Of a stretch of 42,149 nucleotides of DNA, positions 9,565 to 21,593 are shown piece after piece. Within the stretch, counting starts at the first letter, position 1. Each line of letters opens with the position of its first letter. The position numbers and the translations under genes were made by a program. The notes beneath the pieces were generated by a model. The model had not been told where the DNA came from. It saw only the letters and a list, made by a program, of their open reading frames with translations, and did not search any database. The DNA is from an uncultured Eubacteriales bacterium. GTDB lineage: Bacteria > Bacillota > Clostridia > Peptostreptococcales > Anaerovoracaceae. The DNA lies in contig CADBXM010000019.1 in the NCBI GenBank assembly GCA_902798745.1, forward strand, positions 1 to 42,149, read 5' to 3'.

Positions 9565-10932
9565 TCATTCGACCGGCTGTGGCGGTACGAATGCGAGACC
9601 GGCTTCCAGATCTTCGTCTGTAGGGATGTAGTCTGTCATCTTGCCGGCGTTGTATTGCTTATATGCTATAAGGTCGAAGAAGCCCGTGCCCGAAAGGCCG
9701 AATAGTATGTTCTTCGCTTCGCCTGTTTCTTTGCACTTCAGAGCTTCGTCCATGGCTGCTTTTATAGCGTGGCTGCTCTCAGGAGCAGGGAGTATGCCTT
9801 CAGCTTTTGCGAAGATCTCGGCAGCTTCAAATACTTCGGTCTGCTCGTAAGCGACAGCTTCCATCATTCCCTGATCGTACAGTTCAGAAAGAATAGTGCT
9901 CATACCGTGGAATCTGAGTCCGCCTGCATGTATAGGAGAAGGCATGAAGCCGTTTCCGAGTGTGTACATCTTTGCGAGAGGGCACACCTTGCCCGTGTCG
10001 CAGAAATCATAGAGATATTTGCCTCTTGTGAAGCTCGGACAAGACGCCGGCTCAGCCCCTATGATCCTATAGTCTTTCTCTCCTCTGAGTTTTTCGCCCA
10101 TGAACGGAGCGATGAGCCCTCCGAGATTTGATCCGCCTCCTGTGCATCCGATTATTATGTCAGGGGAGACCCCGATCTTTTCAAATGCCTTGTGCGCTTC
10201 GAGACCTATTATGCTCTGGTGCAACAAGACCTGATTGAGAACACTGCCAAGCACATACCTGTAGCCGTCTCTGGTCACAGCGGCTTCGACAGCTTCCGAG
10301 ATAGCGCAACCGAGGCTTCCTCCCGTACCCGGGAATTCCTTAAGGATCTTGCGCCCGACCTCGGTGGTCTCGGAAGGTGAGGCGGTGACTTCCGCGCCGT
10401 AAGTCTTCATCACTTCACGGCGGAAAGGCTTTTGCTCATATGATGTCTTCACCATGAACACCTTGAGGTCGAGACCGAAATGAGCGCATGCCATCGACAA
10501 AGCGGTTCCCCACTGGCCGGCTCCGGTTTCAGTAGTGACTCCTTTGAGGCCCTGCTTCGCCGCGTAATACGCCTGCGCGGCAGCTGAATTCAGCTTGTGG
10601 CTGCCTGACGTGTTGTTTCCCTCGAATTTGAAGTAGATAGCAGCCGGAGTTCCGAGCGCTTTTTCCAGATTGTATGCGCGTACGAGAGGGGAAGGCCTGA
10701 AGGTCTTGTAATACTCTCTTACTTCTTCAGGTATCTCGACAAATGCTGTTTCATCATCGAGTTCCTGTTTTACAAGCTCGGAACAGAAAACGCCTTCCAG
10801 CTCTTCTGCCGTCATAGGCTTTAAAGTGGCCGGGTTGAGCAGAGGGGCAGGTTTCTTGCTCATGTCCGCTCTGAGGTTGTAATAATGCGTAGGGATCTCT
10901 TCTTCTGTAAGATAGGTGCGGTAATTGATCAT
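9565..10932 (-). CDS. trpB2: TrpB2-type tryptophan synthase beta chain
   Basis: 455 residues from the ATG at 10932, with AAAGGAGG upstream. The longer open frame to 11064 runs back through the T-box and is not translated sense. It is a PLP enzyme of fold type II. The PLP lysine is in SGSHKLNSA, the catalytic Glu is in TETGAGQWG (W where TrpB1 has H), and the phosphate loop is GGGSN. The length and the long N-terminus (TEEEIPTHYYNLRADM) mark it as TrpB2 rather than TrpB1. It makes L-tryptophan from serine and indole. No trpA or other trp gene is present, so indole salvage is likely. The Trp-specific T-box in front supports the product assignment. Confidence 0.93.
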   Translation of the reverse strand: MINYRTYLTEEEIPTHYYNLRADMSKKPAPLLNPATLKPMTAEELEGVFCSELVKQELDDETAFVEIPEEVREYYKTFRPSPLVRAYNLEKALGTPAAIYFKFEGNNTSGSHKLNSAAAQAYYAAKQGLKGVTTETGAGQWGTALSMACAHFGLDLKVFMVKTSYEQKPFRREVMKTYGAEVTASPSETTEVGRKILKEFPGTGGSLGCAISEAVEAAVTRDGYRYVLGSVLNQVLLHQSIIGLEAHKAFEKIGVSPDIIIGCTGGGSNLGGLIAPFMGEKLRGEKDYRIIGAEPASCPSFTRGKYLYDFCDTGKVCPLAKMYTLGNGFMPSPIHAGGLRFHGMSTILSELYDQGMMEAVAYEQTEVFEAAEIFAKAEGILPAPESSHAIKAAMDEALKCKETGEAKNILFGLSGTGFFDLIAYKQYNAGKMTDYIPTDEDLEAGLAFVPPQPVE

Positions 10933-11399: not shown

Positions 11400-12404
11400 A
11401 TGATAGTAATACTCAAACACGGCGTTACTGACGAAAAGCGCGATCAGCTGATCAACTGGTTCAAGACACAGGGCCTGGGCGTAGATGTATCAAAGGGAGA
11501 ATTCCAAACGATACTTGGCCTGATAGGAGATGTGCTCAGCCTCGATACCGATATGATCGAGAGCCTTGACATAGTGCAGGCGACACGTAGGGTCACAGAG
11601 CCGTTCAAGCGATGCAACCGAAAGTTCCAGCCTGATGACACAGTGATCTCCGTTGCGGGAGCAAGTCTGGGCGGAGGCAATTTCGCATTCATCGCAGGAC
11701 CATCCTCGATCGAGAGCGAAGAGCAGATAGTTCAGGTGGCTGAAGCGGTCAAAGCGGCCGGAGGGGATATTTTTACCGGCGGATCGATAAGCGCCAAGAC
11801 AGCCAGCCATAATCTTCAGAAGAAAAATCTTTTGGAGATAGATCGTCTTAAGCTGGCAAAAAAGGAGACAGGCATGCCTGTTGCAAAGGAACTGATCTCA
11901 GTGGAGGATATCCCAAAGTATGAAGACGTGGATATACTGATCATCGGTGAACGCAATATGTGCAATTATCCTCTCCTCGCAGCCGCGGGAGATACGGACA
12001 AGACCATCATCCTAAAGAGATCTGTTTCCGCGACGCTGGAAGAACTTCTGATGTCCGCCGAGTATATAATGGCAGGCGGCAATAAAAACATCATACTGTG
12101 CGAAAGAGGGCTGCGTACGTTTTCGAGTGAAACAAAAACGACCTTCGACATATCCGCTATCCCGCTGCTGAAGGAGATGTCACATCTTCCTGTTATAGCA
12201 GATGTCAGCCGCAGCACCGGCCTGAACAGACTGGTGAGACCTGTCTCGCTGGCGGCATGCGCGGCGGGAGCTGACGGACTGATGATAGATGTACATAACG
12301 ATCCTTCGGGCGCTGTCAGAAACGGTGGACAGGCCATTTCGACAGAGGCCTTCGGGACACTTGCTAAGGATATTTGCAGATTAAGAGAGGCTTTGGGCAA
12401 ATGA
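11400..12404 (+). CDS. DAHP synthase-like protein lacking all four metal ligands
   Basis: 334 residues, colinear with Thermotoga-type DAHP synthase: an N-terminal ferredoxin-like regulatory domain (1-~70, starting MIVILKHGVT) and a TIM barrel with IAGPSSIES, DILIIGERNM, TIILKRSVSATLEE, ILCERGLRTF and HLPVIADVS. The metal ligands of that family (Cys102, His272, Glu298, Asp309 in T. maritima, from memory) read here Ser102, Arg271, Asp297 and Asn308. The substrate motif KPRTS reads AKTAS (132-136), losing the arginine. Ordinary metal-dependent DAHP synthesis is therefore unlikely, although LKR and CERG are kept. An intact DAHP synthase lies at 18926. The gene overlaps tyrA by ATGA, so it may be a regulatory pseudoenzyme or have a changed reaction. 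Not truncated or frameshifted. Confidence 0.82.
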   Translation: MIVILKHGVTDEKRDQLINWFKTQGLGVDVSKGEFQTILGLIGDVLSLDTDMIESLDIVQATRRVTEPFKRCNRKFQPDDTVISVAGASLGGGNFAFIAGPSSIESEEQIVQVAEAVKAAGGDIFTGGSISAKTASHNLQKKNLLEIDRLKLAKKETGMPVAKELISVEDIPKYEDVDILIIGERNMCNYPLLAAAGDTDKTIILKRSVSATLEELLMSAEYIMAGGNKNIILCERGLRTFSSETKTTFDISAIPLLKEMSHLPVIADVSRSTGLNRLVRPVSLAACAAGADGLMIDVHNDPSGAVRNGGQAISTEAFGTLAKDICRLREALGK

Positions 12405-13228
12405 TCGTAGGTGTGGTAGGACTCGGCCTTATAGGAGGCTCTATAGCAAAGGCTTATCATGCGGCGGGGCATACCGTGTACGCATGGAACAGGACAGCGA
12501 GCACGCTGGGCTTTGCTTTGATAAGCGGCGATGTCGACGCGGAGCTCACAGAGAAAAACGTGTCGGAATGCGATCTCATATTCGTAAGCCTTTATCCTAA
12601 GGCATCGATAGAGTGGGTACGTCAGATGGCCCCGTATTTTGGGGAAAAGCCTCTGGTGATGGATGCCTGCGGAACAAAACGCGATGTATGCAACGCTTGT
12701 TTCAAGCTGGCAGAAGAGTATGGATTCACATTTGTAGGCGGCCATCCTATGGGAGGCACCAAAGACCGTGGATATAAGTATTCCAAGGCAGATATGTTCT
12801 ATGGCTGCCCTATGGTGGTAGTCCCTCCGAGATATGACGATATCGAGTTGTATTCCAGGATCAAAGAGCTGCTCGAGCCGCTCAAGCTGGGTCGCTATTC
12901 CATCACGACCGCAGAAGACCACGACAGCATGATAGCTTTCACGTCTCAGCTGTCACATGTCATAGCCAGCTCCTACATTAAGAGTCCATCAGCCGAGAGA
13001 CAGGGAGGTTTCTCGGGCGGTACTTACAGGGACATGACCCGTGTGGCATATCTGAACGCGCCTATGTGGTCCGAGATATTCATAAGCAACAAGGATCGAC
13101 TTCTGGCAGAGATCGATTCCCTTGTAACCAATATTAACAAGTACAGAGACGCCATCAGCAACGAGGATGTGGACACACTTCGCGAACTTCTTGAAGACGG
13201 ATCGCGCAGAAAAGAAAAACTGGGATAG
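12401..13228 (+). CDS. tyrA: Prephenate dehydrogenase
   Basis: 275 residues from the ATG that overlaps the previous stop (ATGA). The N-terminal Rossmann domain has GLGLIGGS (7-14), and the family signature GGHPMGGTKDRG (113-124) contains the catalytic-region His115. The C-terminal helical domain has TSQLSHVIASSYI and the FSGGTYRDMTRVA motif. There is no C-terminal ACT domain. It oxidatively decarboxylates prephenate to 4-hydroxyphenylpyruvate with NAD(P), the tyrosine branch. It lies upstream of the attenuator, so its transcription is not under that element. Confidence 0.93.
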   Translation: MIVGVVGLGLIGGSIAKAYHAAGHTVYAWNRTASTLGFALISGDVDAELTEKNVSECDLIFVSLYPKASIEWVRQMAPYFGEKPLVMDACGTKRDVCNACFKLAEEYGFTFVGGHPMGGTKDRGYKYSKADMFYGCPMVVVPPRYDDIELYSRIKELLEPLKLGRYSITTAEDHDSMIAFTSQLSHVIASSYIKSPSAERQGGFSGGTYRDMTRVAYLNAPMWSEIFISNKDRLLAEIDSLVTNINKYRDAISNEDVDTLRELLEDGSRRKEKLG

Positions 13229-13494: not shown

Positions 13495-14343
13495 ATGGAC
13501 CTGAACGAAGCAAGAGAAAAGATAAACAAAATCGACACAGAGATGGCAAAGCTGTTCGAGCAGAGAATGGAAGCTGTGAGAGAGGTAGCCGAATACAAGA
13601 GCGCCAGAGGGCTTCCTGTCGAAGATCTGGAAAGAGAACAGAGTCTTATCGAGAGCATGTCGGCAAACATCAGCGATGAAGAGGTGAGACCGTTCTATGT
13701 CAGCTTTCTTCAGAACACCATGGATGTAAGCAAGAACTGGCAGCACAGCCTGATAAGCGGGATCAGAGTCGCCTGCGCGGAGGACAAATATTCCGACGGA
13801 ACAAGCGCTGCGGAAAGTATATTCCCAAGCGAGAACATAACAACATACGGATCATTTGAGGAAGCGTACAAAGCCGTAGAGGACGGAGACTGTGAAGTGG
13901 CGGTACTCCCTCTCGAAAACAGCGATAAGGGCGATGTGGGAAAGGTGTACGATCTTCTCTTCGAAGGCAGTCTTCATGTCAACAGTATCAAGGCTGTTGA
14001 GACAGATGGGAGCACCACAAGATACGCGGTCCTTTCCAGAGCTGCAAATGAAGCAGATACCGACAAGGATACCGAGCGCATTCTGGTGATGTTCAGGGTA
14101 AAGGATGAAGTCGGAGGACTGGCCAAGGCCATAAACGTGATAAGCGCGTATGGATACAATATGCACGGACTCAGACCGAGACCGATCAAGGACGTACCAT
14201 GGCACTATTTCTTCTACGTTGAACTCGAGGGCAAAAGCAGCCCTGACAGCGAGGAAAGGATAGTCAGAGGCCTCAGCGCAGCCTGCCTTTCCGTCAAAAT
14301 AGTAGGCCGGCTGACAGATGATTCATTCGGTGCGGGGAGGTAA
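13495..14343 (+). CDS. Chorismate mutase (AroQ) fused to half a prephenate dehydratase lobe and an ACT domain
   Basis: 282 residues. Residues 1-85 are an AroQ chorismate mutase with its apparent catalytic set kept: R7, R24, K35, D44, R47, E48 and Q83. Residues ~91-170 resemble only the first lobe of prephenate dehydratase (FEEAYKAVEDGDCEVAVLPLEN matches the family in position and spacing). The second lobe and the catalytic T-R-F motif are absent. Residues ~190-275 are an ACT domain (VGGLAKAINVISAYGYNMHG) in which the usual E-S-R-P reads L-R-P-R. It should convert chorismate to prephenate, with the ACT part sensing an aromatic amino acid. A separate full dehydratase lies at 19951, so loss of that activity here is tolerable. 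It is directly behind the attenuator, with GAGAGG before the ATG. Confidence 0.88.
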   Translation: MDLNEAREKINKIDTEMAKLFEQRMEAVREVAEYKSARGLPVEDLEREQSLIESMSANISDEEVRPFYVSFLQNTMDVSKNWQHSLISGIRVACAEDKYSDGTSAAESIFPSENITTYGSFEEAYKAVEDGDCEVAVLPLENSDKGDVGKVYDLLFEGSLHVNSIKAVETDGSTTRYAVLSRAANEADTDKDTERILVMFRVKDEVGGLAKAINVISAYGYNMHGLRPRPIKDVPWHYFFYVELEGKSSPDSEERIVRGLSAACLSVKIVGRLTDDSFGAGR

Positions 14344-14346
14344 CTT

Positions 14347-15354
14347 ATGGTACTGAATATATCTCCGGGCGGAAAGAGCTATGATGTGACGGTCGAAAAT
14401 GGCTGTATGGATAGATCTTCGGAACTCCTTGATCTTGGCAGAAAGTGTCTGGTCGTGACTGATGACGGAGTACCGGCAGAATATTCGGAGAAGATCGCTT
14501 CTCAATGCAGTGAGCCTTTTCGGATCACAGTGGCACGGGGCGAAGCTTCCAAGAGCATGGAAATGCTTGAGAGACTTTTGGGCATGATGCTTGAGAACAG
14601 TTTTACAAGAAGCGACTGTGTCGTAGCAGTCGGAGGCGGAATGCCTGGAGATCTAGCCGGATTTGCTGCTGCGTCATACATGAGAGGGATCGATTTCTAT
14701 AATATCCCCACAACTATACTTTCACAGGCAGACAGTTCGATCGGAGGTAAGACCGCGGTCAATCTCGGAGGCGTAAAGAATATAGTAGGAGCTTTCCATC
14801 AGCCTAAAGGCGTGCTGATAGACCCGGATACTTTAGAGACCTTGAGTGAAAGACACAGGGCCGCAGGCATGGCCGAGATAATCAAATCGGGTCTTATAGC
14901 CGATGCCGGGCTTTTCAGCTATATAGAGGAGAAGGGCGCGAAAGACCTCGATATGATGAAGGTCATTGAAGCAGCTCTAAGAGTAAAGAAAAAAGTCGTG
15001 GAGGAAGATGAGCGCGAAAGCGGTATCAGGAGGATACTTAATTTCGGCCATACGATAGGACACGGCATCGAGAGCGTGACAGGCTTGCTCCATGGAGAGT
15101 GCGTAGCAATAGGCATGCTTCCTATGTGTTCGACAGAAGTTAGAGAGCGTCTTATCCCTGTGCTTGAGAGCGCGGGGCTTGGGACATCGGCAGAGTGCGA
15201 TCCTGAAGAAGTATTCGAGGCCGTGATGCACGACAAGAAGATCTCAGGCAGCGTGATAAGGACAGTGTATGTCCCTGAACCGGGAACAGCGGAGATCGTG
15301 GAGATGGAAGCGGAAGAACTCAAAAGCAGGATCAACAGCGTCTGTCATAAATAG
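14347..15354 (+). CDS. aroB: 3-dehydroquinate synthase
   Basis: 335 residues, slightly short of the usual ~355. It turns DAHP into 3-dehydroquinate with NAD and a divalent metal. Motifs are VAVGGGMPGDLAGF (94-106; the family usually has V or I where P100 stands), IPTTILSQADSSIGGKTAVN, AEIIKSGLI (metal Glu) and FGHTIGHGIE with HGE further on (metal histidines). GGGGAGG precedes the ATG, only three bases after the upstream stop, so the two are cotranscribed and probably coupled. This is step two of the shikimate pathway. Confidence 0.95.
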   Translation: MVLNISPGGKSYDVTVENGCMDRSSELLDLGRKCLVVTDDGVPAEYSEKIASQCSEPFRITVARGEASKSMEMLERLLGMMLENSFTRSDCVVAVGGGMPGDLAGFAAASYMRGIDFYNIPTTILSQADSSIGGKTAVNLGGVKNIVGAFHQPKGVLIDPDTLETLSERHRAAGMAEIIKSGLIADAGLFSYIEEKGAKDLDMMKVIEAALRVKKKVVEEDERESGIRRILNFGHTIGHGIESVTGLLHGECVAIGMLPMCSTEVRERLIPVLESAGLGTSAECDPEEVFEAVMHDKKISGSVIRTVYVPEPGTAEIVEMEAEELKSRINSVCHK

Positions 15355-15365
15355 AGGTTTTGAAC

Positions 15366-16469
15366 ATGAAGAATTCATTTGGCACAAGTGTTGCGGTAAC
15401 TCTATTCGGAGAAAGCCACGGCCCCGCTGTGGGAGCTGTGATAGATGGATTGGCCCCGGGGATCGACATCGATATGGAATATATCAGAGCCAGGCTCGAA
15501 TCGAGAAAACCCTATGGCAGCATCTCGACGCCGCGCCGTGAAAAAGATGACTTTCAGATAGTAAGCGGAGTGTTCGAGGGAAAGACGACGGGCACGCCCC
15601 TTTGCGTGATCGTTCCGAATACCGCTCAGAAAAGCTCAGACTACGAAGCGGACAGGCCACTTGCAAGGCCCGGACACGCGGACTATACCGCTTATGTTAA
15701 GTATCACGGATATGAAGACTACCGAGGCGGCGGACACTTCTCGGGCAGGATCACCGTGGCTCTTGTTGCCGCGGGAGCGATTTGTCAGTCTGCTCTATCA
15801 AAAAAAGGCATAAGCATCGGTACTCACATATCCCGTCTTGCAGGTATTGATGATAGTAGATTCAGCCTGAATGAAGGAGATCTAAAAAAAGAGATCGACT
15901 GCCTTGGCAATAGACGCTTTGCGGTCATCGATGAACAGAAGGCCGAAGTCATGCAAGAGGCAATAAAAGAAGCGGCGTCAGATGGGGACAGCGTTGGAGG
16001 CATACTCGAGACTGCTGTGGCAGGCCTGCCGGCCGGTATAGGCGAGCCTTGGTTTGACTCACTTGAAGGCGTGCTATCACATGCCCTTTTCTCGATACCG
16101 GGGATAAAAGGCGTACAATTCGGAGGCGGTTTCGACCTCGTGGATGCCAGGGGAAGCGAATACAACGATGCCCTTCGCATGAAGGGAAGCAGAGTCGTAT
16201 CGCTTACCAACAATAACGGCGGTATCAACGGAGGCATATCCAACGGAATGCCGCTTATGTTCAGCTGTGCCGTAAAGCCGACTCCTTCGATACATATCGC
16301 TCAGGAGACTGTAGATTTTGTAAAAGGAGAAGACGTAGATATAGAAACAGGCGGGAGACATGATCCCGCAATCATACACAGAGCGAGAGTAGTCGTCGAT
16401 TCCGTTACGGCTCTCGTGCTCGCCGACCAGCTTGCACTGAGATACGGGACTGACTGGTTGATGCCATAG
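15366..16469 (+). CDS. aroC: Chorismate synthase
   Basis: 367 residues from the ATG at 15366 with GAGG upstream; a TTG at 15360 would add two residues. It converts EPSP to chorismate with reduced FMN. The start reads SFGTSVAVTLFGESHGPAVG, typical of the family. Other signatures are RPGHADYTAYVKY, DYRGGGHFSGRITV and NNNGGINGGISNGMPL, with a final GRHDPAIIHRA. No flavin reductase domain is fused. It lies 11 bases after aroB in the same transcript. Confidence 0.96.
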   Translation: MKNSFGTSVAVTLFGESHGPAVGAVIDGLAPGIDIDMEYIRARLESRKPYGSISTPRREKDDFQIVSGVFEGKTTGTPLCVIVPNTAQKSSDYEADRPLARPGHADYTAYVKYHGYEDYRGGGHFSGRITVALVAAGAICQSALSKKGISIGTHISRLAGIDDSRFSLNEGDLKKEIDCLGNRRFAVIDEQKAEVMQEAIKEAASDGDSVGGILETAVAGLPAGIGEPWFDSLEGVLSHALFSIPGIKGVQFGGGFDLVDARGSEYNDALRMKGSRVVSLTNNNGGINGGISNGMPLMFSCAVKPTPSIHIAQETVDFVKGEDVDIETGGRHDPAIIHRARVVVDSVTALVLADQLALRYGTDWLMP

Positions 16470-16488: not shown

Positions 16489-17724
16489 ATGAGATGCGGA
16501 CTGATAGGCGAAAGACTGGGACACAGTTTTTCAAAAGAGATCCATCAGCAGTTTGGAAAATATGGATACGATCTCATTGAACTGGCTCCTGAAGAGCTGG
16601 AGAGTTTTATCATGTCCGGTGATTTCGATGGGCTCAATGTGACGATCCCATACAAACAGACCGTGATGCAATATCTGGACGAGATCAGCGACCTTGCCAG
16701 TGAGGCAGGAGCGGTAAACACTGTTGTGAACAGAGATGGTAAGCTGACCGGATATAATACGGATTGCGGTGGGATGAAGATGCTGATCGAAAGGATGGGC
16801 ATCGATCTGAAAGGAAAAAAAGCATTCATAGCAGGTTCCGGCGGCACGAGCCGGACAGCCGCAGCTGTGTGCAAAAGCCTGGGCGCGAAAGAAACCGTAC
16901 GCGCCAGCCGAAGCGGAAGAAACGGCGCGGTGACATACGAAGAAGCCTACAGAATTTGCAGCGATGCTGCTATCCTGATCAATACGACTCCCGCGGGGAT
17001 GTATCCGGACACAGACAGCGTGCCATTCGATATCGACCGCTTTGATAATCCTGAGGGCGTGCTCGATGTCATATATAATCCTCTCAATACCCGGCTCATC
17101 CAGAAAGCGAGACAGAAAGGCATAAAAGCAGAGAACGGGCTTTATATGCTTGTGGGGCAGGCAGTACTATCATCCGAATTCTTCACCGGAACCAAGGCCG
17201 ATGAAGGTATCACGGAGAAGATCTACCAGAGCCTTCTTGAGGAGAAACAAAACATCGTGCTTACGGGAATGCCCGGATGCGGAAAATCAACTCTCGGCAA
17301 GATGCTCGCGGAGAGACTTGGCAGAGATATGATAGAAACAGACGAGGTGATAGCCCGTGAAGCCGGTATATCAATTAAAGAAATATTCGCAAAACACGGG
17401 GAACGGTATTTCCGTGATCTGGAGAGTGAAGTCATAAAACGCTATGCTGTGAGAAACGGACTTGTCATTTCGACAGGCGGGGGAGCTGTTCTCAGGAAGG
17501 AGAACGTCGACGCTCTCCGCATGAACGGGGTAGTTGTGTTTATAGACAGGGCTCTCGACAAAATGAAGCCTTCGAGCGACAGACCCCTTTCCGATGATCG
17601 CAGCAAACTTGAGAGATTGTATGAGGAACGCTACGCGATTTATAAGGAAGCTGCGGATATCATTGTGAAAACTGACGGCACAAAAGAAGATTCAGCTGAA
17701 AGGCTGTGGGAGGCGCTGCAATGA
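16489..17724 (+). CDS. Shikimate dehydrogenase-shikimate kinase fusion
   Basis: 411 residues, two enzymes in one chain. Residues 1-~250 are AroE: GHSFSKEIH binds shikimate, VTIPYK56 holds the catalytic lysine, NTD (90-92) is kept, and AGSGGTSRT (115-123) is the NADP loop. A GLYMLVGQAVLSSEFF end closes the domain. Residues ~253-411 are AroK: the Walker A loop is GMPGCGKST (260-268), DEVI and RYFRDLESEV follow, STGGGAVLR is the shikimate-binding glycine loop, and DRPL contains the lid arginine. The fusion carries 3-dehydroshikimate through shikimate to shikimate-3-phosphate. It overlaps aroA by ATGA. A sequencing error is not needed to explain it, since the linker is clean. Confidence 0.94.
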   Translation: MRCGLIGERLGHSFSKEIHQQFGKYGYDLIELAPEELESFIMSGDFDGLNVTIPYKQTVMQYLDEISDLASEAGAVNTVVNRDGKLTGYNTDCGGMKMLIERMGIDLKGKKAFIAGSGGTSRTAAAVCKSLGAKETVRASRSGRNGAVTYEEAYRICSDAAILINTTPAGMYPDTDSVPFDIDRFDNPEGVLDVIYNPLNTRLIQKARQKGIKAENGLYMLVGQAVLSSEFFTGTKADEGITEKIYQSLLEEKQNIVLTGMPGCGKSTLGKMLAERLGRDMIETDEVIAREAGISIKEIFAKHGERYFRDLESEVIKRYAVRNGLVISTGGGAVLRKENVDALRMNGVVVFIDRALDKMKPSSDRPLSDDRSKLERLYEERYAIYKEAADIIVKTDGTKEDSAERLWEALQ

Positions 17725-18920
17725 AGGTAACGATCACTCCCAATGACAAAAGAACAGGTACGTTGAAAGCACCGCCTTCGAAGAGCATGGCACACAGATA
17801 TCTGATCTGTGCCGGACTTGCGGAAGGTACAAGCGTGATAAGCAACATCGCCGCTTCTGAGGACATACTCGCCACTATGGACTGCCTCAGGGCACTCGGT
17901 GCTGAGATTAGCTACTCGCCCGAGGATATGACCGCGGAGGTGAAAGGGACAGACCCTTCAACTAGGGGAGAGACTCTGATGCAATGCAGAGAAAGCGGGA
18001 GTACTCTCAGATTTATGATACCGATCTGCGCTCTCTCGGATCAGACAGCGGTGCTGAGTGGAAAGGGAAGGCTGATGCAGAGGCCTTTGACTGTATATGA
18101 AGATCTATTCGAAGCTCAAGGCATATCCTTTGACAGATCCGATTCATCGATCACGATCAAGGGAAGCCTGAAGGGCGGGGAATACAAAGTGCCGGGTGAT
18201 ATAAGCAGCCAGTTCGTGAGTGGTCTTTTGTTTGCCCTGCCGATTTGCGGAGAGGAAAGTCTCATAAGGCTCGAAGGAAACATCGAAAGCAGACCTTATA
18301 TAGACATGACGATAAAGGCTCTCAAGGAGCATGGTATCGATGTAGGTTGGAAGAATGAAACAGATCTTGCCGTGAGCGGAGCTCATCGTTACGTAGCTGC
18401 CGATACAATGGTCGAGGGGGATTGGTCAAATGCGGCCAACCTTATGGCTCTCGGAGCCAGAGTGACAGGAGTAGATCCTGAAAGCCTTCAGGGAGACAGA
18501 GTGTGCGATCGATACTTCGGCTTGCTGGAGAAAGACCGAGCCGAGCTTGATATTTCCGATTGCCCCGACCTCGGGCCTGTGCTGATGGCCTACGCCGCGC
18601 TAAACCACGGAGCAGTCCTCCGCGGGACAAGAAGGCTCAAGTTCAAGGAATCGGACAGGGGCAACGTCATGAAGGAAGAACTCGCGAAGTTTGATGTCGA
18701 TGTCGATGTATGCGATGATTCGATAACAGTAGGATGCGGAGTGAAGGCTCCGACCGAGACCCTGTCCGGACACAATGATCACAGGATCGTTATGGCGCTC
18801 GCGGCGATTTGTACCCGTACAGGCGGAACCATCGACGGCGCGGAAGCAGTAAGCAAAAGCTTCCCGGACTATTTTGAAAGAATGCGCGATCTGGGCATAG
18901 AGATCAGAAAGGAGATCTGA
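17721..18920 (+). CDS. aroA: 3-phosphoshikimate 1-carboxyvinyltransferase (EPSP synthase)
   Basis: 399 residues from the ATG overlapping the stop of the previous gene; GGGAGG lies upstream. It adds PEP to shikimate-3-phosphate. Motifs are LKAPPSKSMAHR (substrate lysine), RESGSTLRFMIPI, a QRPL loop, GDISSQFVSGLLFALP, FKESDRG (catalytic region) and GHNDHRIVMALA. Length is a little below the usual ~425 but all the signature blocks are there. Confidence 0.96.
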   Translation: MKVTITPNDKRTGTLKAPPSKSMAHRYLICAGLAEGTSVISNIAASEDILATMDCLRALGAEISYSPEDMTAEVKGTDPSTRGETLMQCRESGSTLRFMIPICALSDQTAVLSGKGRLMQRPLTVYEDLFEAQGISFDRSDSSITIKGSLKGGEYKVPGDISSQFVSGLLFALPICGEESLIRLEGNIESRPYIDMTIKALKEHGIDVGWKNETDLAVSGAHRYVAADTMVEGDWSNAANLMALGARVTGVDPESLQGDRVCDRYFGLLEKDRAELDISDCPDLGPVLMAYAALNHGAVLRGTRRLKFKESDRGNVMKEELAKFDVDVDVCDDSITVGCGVKAPTETLSGHNDHRIVMALAAICTRTGGTIDGAEAVSKSFPDYFERMRDLGIEIRKEI

Positions 18921-18925
18921 ACCGG

Positions 18926-19954
18926 ATGAATATGGAATTCAAACGCAAACTCCCACAGCCATCAGAGGTAAAGGAAATGTTCCCTCTGACAGAAGGCATG
19001 AAGGAGACTGTGAAGCAAAAGACTGAAGAGCTTCAGGATATATTCTCGAATCGCAGCGACAAACTGGTCCTTATAATAGGGCCATGTTCCGCTGACAATG
19101 AGAAAAGCGTGCTGGATTATATTTCCAGGCTTGCGGCTGTACAGGAAAAAGTCAAAGACAGGGTCATGATAGTCCCACGCGTTTATACGAATAAACCTCG
19201 CACAACAGGCGAGGGATATAAGGGCTTTGTTCATCAGCCCGATCCCGATGAGAGCCCGGACCTTTTCAAGGGGATAATCTTTACGCGTGAGATGCACATG
19301 AGCGCGATCAAGGAAGCAGGTTCTGTATGCGCAGACGAACTTCTCTATCCTGAAAATTACAAATACATAGACGATCTTCTGGGCTATGTTGCAATAGGGG
19401 CAAGAAGCGTGGAGGATCAGCAGCACAGGATGACAGCGAGCGCGGCAGACTGCCCGGTAGGTATGAAGAATCCAACCAGTGGAGACCTTTCCGTTATGAT
19501 GAACGCGATCACAGCCGCTCAGCACGAGCACGACTTTATATACAGAGGCTGGGAGGGCCATTCGAACGGCAATCCTTACGCTCACGCTATCCTGAGAGGA
19601 TATGTCAACAGACAGGGAGTCTCTCATCCGAATTATCACTATGAGACGCTCCTTTATCTGTCTGAGCTTTACAAGAATAGCGACCTGGTGAATCCGGGCG
19701 TGATAATCGACTGCAACCATGCCAACAGCGGCAAGGATCCGATGCAGCAACCGCGAATAATGAAAGATGTCCTGCTTTCCTGCAGATATAACGAAGATAT
19801 CAAGAAGCTGGTAAGAGGCTTTATGGTGGAAAGCTATATCGAAGACGGCAAACAGCCTGTGGGCGGCGGCGTGTACGGCAAGAGCATCACAGACGCGTGT
19901 CTTGGCTGGGACAAGACCGAGAAGATGATTTACGAAATAGCGGAGATGATATGA
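18926..19954 (+). CDS. aroG: DAHP synthase, AroG/AroF/AroH type
   Basis: 342 residues. It joins PEP and erythrose-4-phosphate, the first step of the pathway. All four metal ligands of the family can be seen: Cys54 in IIGPCSADN, His in IDCNHANS, Glu in GFMVESYIEDG and Asp in SITDACLGW. The PEP motif is NKPRTTGEGYKG. It belongs to the class of the E. coli isoenzymes, unlike the degenerate Thermotoga-type homologue that starts the cluster. AAGGAG lies 11 bases before the ATG; a second ATG two codons in is possible. It overlaps pheA by ATGA. Confidence 0.95.
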   Translation: MNMEFKRKLPQPSEVKEMFPLTEGMKETVKQKTEELQDIFSNRSDKLVLIIGPCSADNEKSVLDYISRLAAVQEKVKDRVMIVPRVYTNKPRTTGEGYKGFVHQPDPDESPDLFKGIIFTREMHMSAIKEAGSVCADELLYPENYKYIDDLLGYVAIGARSVEDQQHRMTASAADCPVGMKNPTSGDLSVMMNAITAAQHEHDFIYRGWEGHSNGNPYAHAILRGYVNRQGVSHPNYHYETLLYLSELYKNSDLVNPGVIIDCNHANSGKDPMQQPRIMKDVLLSCRYNEDIKKLVRGFMVESYIEDGKQPVGGGVYGKSITDACLGWDKTEKMIYEIAEMI

Positions 19955-20778
19955 TAATTGGATACCAGGGCGTAAGCGGAGCCTTCAGCGAAACGGCGGT
20001 CAAAATGCTCTTCGAAGGAAGAGAATATGAGGACAGGGGATACAGCGATTTCATTTCGTTGCTCGCAGATACCGAGAGCGGAGCTGTCGACTACGCGGTG
20101 ATACCTGTAGAAAATACTACGACCGGTATAATAGCCAGGACGTACGACCATCTGCAGAATTACGATATACATATAGTAGGAGAGGCGGTCGTGCCGATCA
20201 GAGAATGCCTGATCGCGAATCCGGGTTCGAAGATCGAAGATATCAAGGAAGTTTACAGCCATCCTGAAGCGCTGTCACAGTGCCAGGAATTGTTTACCAG
20301 ATATCCCAACATGACTCCTCACGCGCATGAAGATACGGCGCTCAGTGTCAGCTATATACGCGACACAGGCGATCCGACCAAAGCAGCGCTCGCTAGTGAG
20401 CTTGCTGCCGAGACATACGGGATGGAGATCCTTCTGCCCGATGTACAGGACAATAACGTGAACATGACAAGGTTTCTGTGCGTGACAGCCAGAGATGAAA
20501 AACCCGAAGACGCAGATAAAGTCAGCCTCAGGATGGTGACGTCTCACACCCCGGGGTCGCTTTTCAATGCTCTCGGGATATTCGCGTCTTTTGGAATAAA
20601 CGTACTCAAGCTTGAGAGCAGACCTATCTTCGGAAGAGTATTTGAATATTGCTTCTATCTGGATTTTGCCGGCAGTCTCGACGACCCGGATGTCAGAGAA
20701 GCTTTGAGAAGGCTTGAATATGATTGCACCGAAGTGAACGTTTTCGGTAATTACAAGGCAGCAATGGAGTACATGTGA
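19951..20778 (+). CDS. pheA: Prephenate dehydratase with ACT domain
   Basis: 275 residues from the ATG overlapping the aroG stop. Both lobes of the dehydratase are present: GYQGVSGAFSETA at the start, DYAVIPVENTTTGII in the middle and the catalytic NMTRFLCV (171-178, T173). Residues ~190-275 form the ACT domain with HTPGSLFNALGIFASFGIN and the ESRP phenylalanine-site motif intact. It makes phenylpyruvate from prephenate and is probably inhibited by phenylalanine. This complete enzyme contrasts with the half-lobe in the chorismate mutase fusion at 13495. Confidence 0.95.
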   Translation: MIIGYQGVSGAFSETAVKMLFEGREYEDRGYSDFISLLADTESGAVDYAVIPVENTTTGIIARTYDHLQNYDIHIVGEAVVPIRECLIANPGSKIEDIKEVYSHPEALSQCQELFTRYPNMTPHAHEDTALSVSYIRDTGDPTKAALASELAAETYGMEILLPDVQDNNVNMTRFLCVTARDEKPEDADKVSLRMVTSHTPGSLFNALGIFASFGINVLKLESRPIFGRVFEYCFYLDFAGSLDDPDVREALRRLEYDCTEVNVFGNYKAAMEYM

Positions 20779-20801
20779 TCAAAGAGCAAGAGGCATATCG
20801 A

Positions 20802-21593
20802 ATGAAGACCGTCAAAGTGAGGAATACAGTTATAGGCGAAGGGATCCCGAAGATCTGTGTGCCTGTATTCGAAAAGACAAAAGAAGAGATATTGAGCGAG
20901 GCGGGACAAATAGCCGGGCTTAAGCCGGATATAGTAGAGTTTCGCGCGGACCGTTTTGAGCGCTGCCATGATTTCGATAGCCTCGAGGATGTACTGACTG
21001 AACTGAGGACTGTTCTGGGGGAGATACCGCTGCTTTTCACTCTAAGGACTTTGGCTGAAGGCGGAGACGCGGACATAGGAGACGATGATTACACTGATAT
21101 CAACATAAAAGCCTGCAAAAGCGGAACTATCGATATGGTTGACGCAGAGGCACTAAGGGGAGCTGATATAGCACCGATCATCGAAGCCGCGCACTCACTG
21201 GGCGTTAAGATAGTTGCGTCGCATCATGATTTCGAGAAGACCCCTGAAAAAGATGTGATAATTGAGCAATTCCGGAAGATGCAGGAAACAGGTGCCGATA
21301 TCCTCAAGATAGCGGTGATGCCTCAAAGCAACAAGGACGTTTCAAGCTTGCTTGCTGCTGCAGAGGAAATGGTGACTGAGTATGCCGAGTGCCCTGTGGT
21401 GGCGATATCCATGGGTGAACTCGGAACAGTCAGCAGACTTGCCGGGGAAGCAGTAGGCTCGGCGATAACATTCGGTGCAGCATCCAATAAGTCTGCTCCG
21501 GGTCAGATAGGTATAGAGGAACTCAGAGAAGGGCTAAAAGATTTTCATGAAGAGCTCGTGGCAGAGACATCGGGCAGCAGAAAGGAACAGTAG
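20802..21593 (+). CDS. aroD: Type I 3-dehydroquinate dehydratase
   Basis: 263 residues from the ATG at 20802 with AGAGG upstream; a GTG at 20775 overlapping the pheA stop would add nine residues. It dehydrates 3-dehydroquinate through a Schiff base. The catalytic residues are E46 and R48 in VEFRAD, H142 in ASHHDF and the Schiff-base K169 in DILKIAVMP. The late ISMGELGTVSR segment and SAITFGAAS end are typical. It completes the shikimate pathway set in this cluster. Confidence 0.95.
   Translation: MKTVKVRNTVIGEGIPKICVPVFEKTKEEILSEAGQIAGLKPDIVEFRADRFERCHDFDSLEDVLTELRTVLGEIPLLFTLRTLAEGGDADIGDDDYTDINIKACKSGTIDMVDAEALRGADIAPIIEAAHSLGVKIVASHHDFEKTPEKDVIIEQFRKMQETGADILKIAVMPQSNKDVSSLLAAAEEMVTEYAECPVVAISMGELGTVSRLAGEAVGSAITFGAASNKSAPGQIGIEELREGLKDFHEELVAETSGSRKEQ

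Follow-up and report, generated by a model that had tools for sequence, protein, structure and literature searches.

A DAHP synthase homologue with a dismantled active site, probably kept as a regulator of a neighbouring enzyme in uncultured Clostridia

Introduction

What task remains for a DAHP synthase that has lost its metal ligands, in an operon that also encodes an intact DAHP synthase? The question is raised by a 334-residue protein, here called pDAHPS, encoded at the head of an aromatic amino acid operon in a 42,149-nt stretch of DNA from an uncultured Eubacteriales bacterium of the family Anaerovoracaceae (assembly GCA_902798745.1, contig CADBXM010000019.1, positions 1 to 42,149), hereafter the window. 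We favour, at a probability of roughly 60%, the view that pDAHPS is a non-catalytic regulatory subunit that senses an aromatic amino acid and whose client would in the first place be TyrA, the prephenate dehydrogenase encoded by the overlapping downstream gene. The loss of the ligands, its conservation, the selection acting on the gene, the reversal of constraint between its two domains, its pairing with tyrA and the presence of AroG are observed; from these we infer the inactivity of pDAHPS, the binding of a ligand, its physical partner and the direction of control.

Identity, fold and loss of the metal ligands

The protein aligns with the DAHP synthase of Thermotoga maritima (type I-beta, with a ferredoxin-like, FXD, domain; structures 1rzm and 3pg9) over residues 1-333 (1rzm; E 1e-76, one single-residue gap), as the initial annotation had proposed, and structural comparison matches it to the same enzyme in fold and two-domain architecture at 39% identity. 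Homology is full-length, covering both the FXD domain and the DAHP_synth_1 barrel. The score is slightly below the cut-off for TIGR01361 (265 against 267.75 bits), and a KDO8P synthase identity was ruled out, the match to TIGR01362 falling far short at 65.2 bits (cut-off 314). Caution is in order for automated annotation, since pDAHPS clears NCBIfam PRK08673 (342.6 bits, cut-off 335), a model described as 3-deoxy-7-phosphoheptulonate synthase. The features of the gene are as follows.

11400-12404, + strand: pDAHPS, homologue of type I-beta DAHP synthases, its metal ligands lost; FXD domain and TIM barrel, 334 residues (open reading frame, profile matches, structure alignment)
11400-11627, + strand: ferredoxin-like (FXD, ACT-like) domain, residues 1-76 (PF18152, 67.8 bits)
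11484-11486, + strand: Asp29 codon in the FXD domain, in place of His29 (Asp in all seven distinct ligand-less sequences described below)
11703-11705, + strand: Ser102 codon, replacing metal ligand Cys102 (alignment)
11790-11804, + strand: S-A-K-T-A (residues 131-135), replacing the KPRTS loop (alignment; low model confidence)
12210-12212, + strand: Arg271 codon, replacing metal ligand His272 (alignment)
12288-12290, + strand: Asp297 codon, replacing metal ligand Glu298 (alignment)
12321-12323, + strand: Asn308 codon, replacing metal ligand Asp309 (alignment)

The Cys/His/Glu/Asp set that holds the metal in active DAHP synthases thus reads S, R, D, N, exactly as first annotated. The KPRTS loop and Arg126 of active enzymes are absent as well, the latter being replaced by Thr. 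The initial annotation had already recognized the loss of the loop, which it gave as AKTAS; the loss stands and the register does not, as KPRTS (131-135 in T. maritima, Tm, numbering) aligns with S-A-K-T-A, in a region where the predicted model has pLDDT values below 50 (residues 131-138). Unlike the T. maritima enzyme, pDAHPS therefore lacks the four metal ligands, Arg126 and KPRTS, and has Asp for His29 in its FXD domain. In metal-independent KDO8P synthases the Cys is replaced by Asn while the His, Glu and Asp stay, whereas in pDAHPS the Cys is replaced by Ser and the three other ligands are replaced too. The fold is predicted to be intact, and to judge from the missing residues the capacity to condense phosphoenolpyruvate (PEP) with erythrose-4-phosphate looks lost.

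Distribution of the ligand loss

Relatives were collected from GTDB contigs, and among the best 80 of 590 confirmed matches two (84% identical) read S-R-D-N and 78 (47-56% identical) read C-H-E-D at the ligand positions. In the GTDB genus of the window, 19 of the 47 genomes match the pDAHPS query, ten of them with whole ligand-less copies, all with open reading frames; nine of these copies read S-R-D-N and that of genome G021 reads S-H-N-S. An eleventh genome, G031, carries a contig-edge fragment of the ligand-less protein in which Ser102 is present. Four copies (G026, G039, G043, G040) are 100% identical in DNA, leaving seven distinct sequences, and because the loss is common to all seven, chance or assembly error was ruled out as its source. 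The four identical genes (G026:C51, G039:C27, G043:C31, G040:C131) come from genomes treated as separate species, and denote either a shared locus or cross-binned contigs; the 5-kb G040 contig may be mis-binned, the AroG operon of that genome being of another lineage.

The initial annotation had held that canonical ligands in sister strains would point to local decay or error. None occur within the ligand-less clade: eight of the 19 matching genus genomes do carry canonical ligands, and of their copies those of G003 and G025 fall outside the clade in the tree, whereas in the other six the match begins no earlier than about residue 57 and most of the FXD domain is missing. In the wider GTDB family, the I-beta query is matched in 188 of 247 sampled genomes, some of which are incomplete (absence of an I-beta match means here none at E 0.001). 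Among 136 further family genes that were read, 135 have C-H-E-D and one, in G050, has A-N-E-D; these genes come from 137 rows, G099 having been read twice (L188, L234), include two from the window's own genus (G003, G025), and leave out 14 further listed matches and the unlisted ones apart from G196.

Purifying selection and reversed domain constraint

The ligand-less clade is under strong purifying selection, with dN/dS values of 0.05-0.09. The ratio is 0.056 for window/G039, 0.053 for window/G041, 0.056 for G039/G041 and 0.055 for G032/G030; the values for window/G033 (0.089, dS 2.58) and window/G021 (0.073, dS 3.06) are rough at such dS, and synonymous sites are saturated in the window/G032, window/G030 and G033/G021 pairs.

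The two domains have exchanged their usual degrees of conservation. Among the seven ligand-less sequences, the FXD domains share a mean pairwise identity of 0.89 and the barrels one of 0.68, the FXD value being the higher in 21 of 21 pairs. The order is reversed among canonical enzymes, with means of 0.54 and 0.73 and the FXD domain ahead in 0.2% of 5654 pairs (drawn from 107 canonical sequences that contain between-collection duplicates, pairs with at least 95% barrel identity having been removed before the count), and in none of the 28 pairs formed by the eight nearest canonical sequences. The clade has 56 invariant columns of 72 in the FXD domain and 107 of 253 in the barrel; 400 random sets of seven canonical sequences gave at most 27 and at least 109, respectively. 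Since the window's FXD domain is only 54-61% identical to those of the nearest canonical sequences (barrel, 50-53%), it appears to have changed on the stem of the clade and then to have been held.

Two hallmarks of a regulatory pseudoenzyme are found here: catalytic residues have been lost in an intact frame that is under purifying selection and conserved between species, and a sensor-type domain is kept and preferentially constrained. The pseudoenzyme suggested in the initial annotation is well supported by the recurrence of the loss in seven distinct sequences, the purifying selection, the predicted intact fold and the hyper-conserved FXD domain. Catalysis looks lost and regulation kept, and the reversed constraint on the domains is best explained by a regulatory role.

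According to the model that we favour, pDAHPS would be a pseudoenzyme derived from an FXD-type (Thermotoga-like, I-beta) DAHP synthase, unable to bind the catalytic metal in the manner of its relatives, probably unable to hold erythrose-4-phosphate, and kept as a non-catalytic regulatory subunit. Its FXD domain would detect tyrosine or a closely related aromatic amino acid, and the barrel would have been retained as scaffold and interface. The likeliest client would be TyrA, whose gene overlaps and which has no ACT domain, with AroG in second place, alone or in the same complex.

TyrA or AroG as partner

The two candidate clients are encoded as follows.

12401-13228, + strand: TyrA, prephenate dehydrogenase, 275 residues, without a match to ACT (its start and the stop of pDAHPS overlap in ATGA)
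18926-19954, + strand: AroG, DAHP synthase of type I-alpha that keeps its metal motifs and presumably catalyses the first step (profile matches, alignment)

The second DAHP synthase of the cluster is intact, as first annotated: AroG keeps its motifs and is the only protein besides pDAHPS to match PF00793 in this genome (1.97 Mb, 93% complete), so that no third DAHP synthase was found by that model, type II enzymes (PF01474) not having been searched.

The stop of the pDAHPS gene overlaps the start of tyrA in all nine genomes in which both genes are whole, by 4 nt (ATGA) in the window, G032, G030, G033 and G021, and by 1 nt (TAATG) in G026, G039, G043 and G041. The pair holds together where the operon is rearranged, being divergent to the AroG operon in G033 and placed after pheA, at the opposite end of the gene run, in G021. 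Across the family, TyrA of the window's type and an I-beta protein occur together in 116 of 119 genomes (the exceptions being G116, G176 and G252), and 16 of the 20 genomes with AroG and no I-beta match have another TyrA type beside AroG. TyrA types were assigned by hand, to 119 genomes with a best E of at most 5.6e-48 and to 17 with a weaker TyrA beside AroG, and the Fisher test across family genomes does not take phylogeny into account. Among the 137 rows of family genes read, 96 have a same-strand TyrA match in the fetched stretch and 41 do not, some stretches reaching a contig end. A second TyrA type, distantly related to that of the window (about 30% identity), stands directly before AroG in G091, G170, G049, G115, G131 and others, so that each DAHP synthase class has its own tyrA neighbour. 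The 592-residue frame around TyrA in G170 was rejected as a fusion, as the extra length looks like open frame preceding a normal TyrA start.

That pDAHPS might be an allosteric partner of AroG was the proposal of the initial annotation. In its strict form, with AroG as the sole client, pDAHPS would confer Tyr/Phe feedback on a type I-alpha DAHP synthase without an effector site of its own, comparable to HisZ and short HisG; we consider this unlikely. Ten of the 11 genomes that carry the ligand-less protein do have AroG, the remaining one being G031 with its contig-end fragment, and this co-occurrence is expected in any case if some enzyme is to make DAHP. Aligned with the type I-alpha enzyme 9j7h, the window's AroG has Asp for Ser180 and a different, shorter stretch around Ser211, positions that we take to form the Phe site of E. 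coli AroG. However, the altered stretch occurs in most of 19 aligned AroGs, with or without pDAHPS, so that loss of the effector site was dropped as a sign of dependence. AroG operons without pDAHPS exist in the same genus, in G014 (77% complete), G016 (59%) and contig G040:C21 (of a different lineage; G040 is a doubtful counter-case, as its pDAHPS gene is identical to that of G026 and the contig may be mis-binned), and of the 35 family genomes with AroG, 20 lack an I-beta match. Neither G014 nor G016, at their 77% and 59% completeness, has a match to the window-type TyrA. Finally, in G033 and G021 the pDAHPS gene is found away from the start of the AroG operon, still beside tyrA. AroG thus retains its co-occurrence, and the closer linkage is to TyrA.

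The former active site

Could pDAHPS instead be an enzyme with a changed reaction, as the initial annotation offered as its other option? Such a protein would use a metal-free barrel to perform a new reaction on a PEP-like substrate, with Arg271-Asp297 in place of the metal site and a Glu at Tm 185 reshaping the PEP pocket. Several residues are compatible with it. Cys102, His272, Glu298 and Asp309 are invariant in the canonical comparison set (107/107), and their replacements are nearly so in the clade, with Ser102 in all seven sequences and Arg271, Asp297 and Asn308 in six; Arg186 and Arg237 (7/7) and Lys207 (6/7), presumably ligands of the PEP phosphate, are retained; and the barrel has the clade-specific invariant changes A185E (7/7), G209S, G146E and R247K. 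On the other side, Arg126 (Thr or Ile) and Lys131 (Ser or Asn) are replaced in all seven sequences, the former KPRTS loop, modelled with low confidence, has six different readings at 131-135 among them, and the G021 copy departs from the others with S-H-N-S at the ligand positions together with K207E and G184R. The variability of the loop and the loss of Lys207 and other site residues in G021 weaken the changed-reaction proposal, and constraint has moved from the barrel to the FXD domain, when a new active site would predict the reverse. Taken together, the residues of the former site do not give the impression of a new, conserved active site, and we regard a new reaction as even less likely than control of AroG alone. 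It is a speculation that Arg271 facing Asp297 (window numbering), together with the Glu at Tm 185 near the phosphate arginines, might mimic a permanently occupied site.

Two further explanations fare worse. A chaperone-like or translational-coupling role, in which tyrA expression or TyrA folding would depend on translation through the upstream gene, would account for the stop/start overlap in nine of nine genomes, but coupling alone would not hold an amino acid sequence at dN/dS 0.05-0.09 with 56 of 72 FXD columns invariant, which makes it very improbable. A decaying remnant, that is, a pseudogene in progress, to which the long stem of the clade (about 1.0 change per column) might lend some colour, is ruled out by the dN/dS values and the ten open frames out of ten, the replacement residues having been kept with synonymous sites near saturation.

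Origin of the ligand-less protein

In a mixture-model tree, the ligand-less clade (support 100/100, stem 1.01) is surrounded by canonical enzymes from other genera (97/95); the TyrA of the clade groups with largely the same neighbours as its DAHP synthase (96/90). When the genus is left aside, G170 has the best match to the window's AroG in the 247 family genomes (72%); this genome has a TyrA-AroG pair and no I-beta match. Because these affinities differ, the operon looks like a composite in which a DAHPS-TyrA pair of other origin stands with an AroG operon, whether through transfer or differential loss. The route to the regulatory subunit may then have been that the pair and the type I-alpha AroG came to share a genome, that one catalytic activity became redundant, and that the active site was lost and the sensor kept.

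The A-N-E-D protein of G050 (L183:2630-3625, - strand), whose gene adjoins tyrA, has an altered KPRTS loop and keeps His29; the genome is 100% complete and has AroG as second DAHP synthase. FastTree grouped it with the ligand-less clade (support 0.80), the mixture-model tree separates the two, and G050 falls in a different group for both DAHP synthase and TyrA; a joint clade is not rejected by the approximately unbiased (AU) test with G050 forced into it (p 0.13 for DAHP synthase, p 0.122 for TyrA). AroG is found in 15 (8%) of the 188 I-beta-bearing family genomes, namely two of the clade, G050, ten whose I-beta genes were read as canonical, and the unread G223 and G250. That both losses occurred in AroG-bearing genomes fits redundancy, a pattern that was noticed after the fact. 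Tentatively, and with the odds somewhat against it, one may go further and propose that a DAHP synthase turned into the aromatic-amino-acid-sensing subunit of prephenate dehydrogenase, the first enzyme of the pathway thereby lending its sensor in trans, with the dead barrel still attached, to an enzyme at a branch point, perhaps twice (in the window clade and in G050), after a second DAHP synthase class had made its catalysis redundant.

Several points weigh against pDAHPS as a sensing subunit of TyrA, and against the history just outlined. Linkage of pDAHPS and tyrA is not interaction. The DAHPS-tyrA order is also found with canonical enzymes (L003, L005, L006, L037), so that the adjacency partly reflects descent. 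G176 and G252 combine a window-type TyrA with AroG while lacking an I-beta match, and G116 has such a TyrA with neither DAHP synthase, from which it follows that TyrA does not strictly need the partner; moreover, 19 of the 155 TyrA-bearing family genomes were left unclassed. TyrA proteins without ACT are general in the family, beside AroG too, and the missing domain was dropped as a sign of dependence on pDAHPS. As Arg186, Arg237 and, in six of seven sequences, Lys207 remain, some phosphate-like ligand may still be bound in the barrel. His29, which in the enzyme of T. maritima we take to contact the hydroxyl group of tyrosine (the Tyr-contact residues of the FXD domain being unconfirmed in print), is present in 97 of 107 canonical sequences and is Asp in all seven ligand-less ones, so that the sensed ligand may have changed. 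Ten other AroG-bearing genomes that were read keep a canonical I-beta enzyme, so redundancy is insufficient for ligand loss, and independence of the G050 loss from that of the window clade is favoured by the tree, not proven. With these reservations, it remains probable, judging from the conserved pattern of loss and constraint, that some gut-type Clostridia keep a DAHP synthase with a dismantled active site as a regulator of a neighbouring enzyme.

Known systems and significance

Proteins with which pDAHPS invites comparison include HisZ, a degenerate tRNA-synthetase homologue, and the DAHP synthase of Mycobacterium tuberculosis, which differs from pDAHPS in being a catalytically active type II enzyme. 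The published accounts, taken here in outline, offer four partial parallels. TSB-like of core eudicots is reported as a non-catalytic paralogue of the tryptophan synthase beta subunit that activates TSA (PMC12727527); like pDAHPS as proposed here, it is a pseudoenzyme from the synthesis of aromatic amino acids that acts allosterically, but it is a plant protein of another fold, and its demonstrated effect is on its former complex partner. HisZ regulates the short form of ATP phosphoribosyltransferase and, according to the outlined account (PMC9734150), is a separate protein through which the end product inhibits a first-step enzyme. It comes from another family than its client, whereas pDAHPS derives from the first-step enzyme itself. 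The non-covalent complex of DAHP synthase and chorismate mutase in M. tuberculosis, as summarized, lets a DAHP synthase control a later aromatic enzyme (PMC4281200), in which it resembles the TyrA proposal. Lastly, an aroA-I-beta 'pseudogene' fused to AroQ-PheA is mentioned for Shewanella oneidensis (PMC1173090), a degenerate I-beta domain kept beside a later aromatic enzyme as with pDAHPS, though as a fusion, in another phylum and with another partner. Among the open-access papers listed, judged by titles and the starts of abstracts, none describes a ligand-less, separately encoded DAHP synthase pseudoenzyme.

If the proposal is true, the clade would be a natural experiment in a feedback sensor that outlived its enzyme, with the sensor domain frozen, the barrel drifting and canonical relatives at hand for comparison. 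The DAHPS-tyrA gene pair in Clostridia also raises the question of an I-beta DAHPS-TyrA complex for the active enzymes.

Other genes of the operon and its surroundings

The remaining genes of the operon are listed here.

13495-14343, + strand: chorismate mutase, partial prephenate dehydratase (PF00800, 13-72 of 181) and ACT-like part (profile matches)
14347-15354, + strand: AroB, 3-dehydroquinate synthase
15360-16469, + strand: AroC, chorismate synthase
16489-17724, + strand: AroE-AroK fusion
17721-18920, + strand: AroA, EPSP synthase
19951-20778, + strand: PheA, full-length prephenate dehydratase with ACT
20775-21593, + strand: AroD, type I 3-dehydroquinase, start uncertain

An Rfam scan of the whole window gave no match at gathering scores. 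Near the operon start, the only match below them is a T-box leader on the opposite strand (RF00230, 10997-11255, - strand; 75.6 bits, E 1.2e-16, gathering score 93), which sits upstream of a divergent TrpB-like (PALP) gene at about 9565-10929.

Many genus members, such as G009, G019, G035 and G036 (94-97% complete), give no match to either the I-beta or the I-alpha query, which suggests aromatic amino acid auxotrophy or another DAHP synthase class, type II not having been searched. The protein encoded at 13495-14343, which joins chorismate mutase to about one third of a prephenate dehydratase and an ACT-like part beside the full-length PheA, is a possible second non-catalytic sensing unit. A stand-alone, truncated prephenate dehydratase/ACT-like protein of about 200 residues, without chorismate mutase, is encoded in G019 (L197:5113-5730), and similar matches are found in G009, G023, G035, G036 and other genus members (the Pfam scan covering the G019 copy only), these being members in which neither DAHP synthase query matched; such a protein could be a free sensor of aromatic amino acids.
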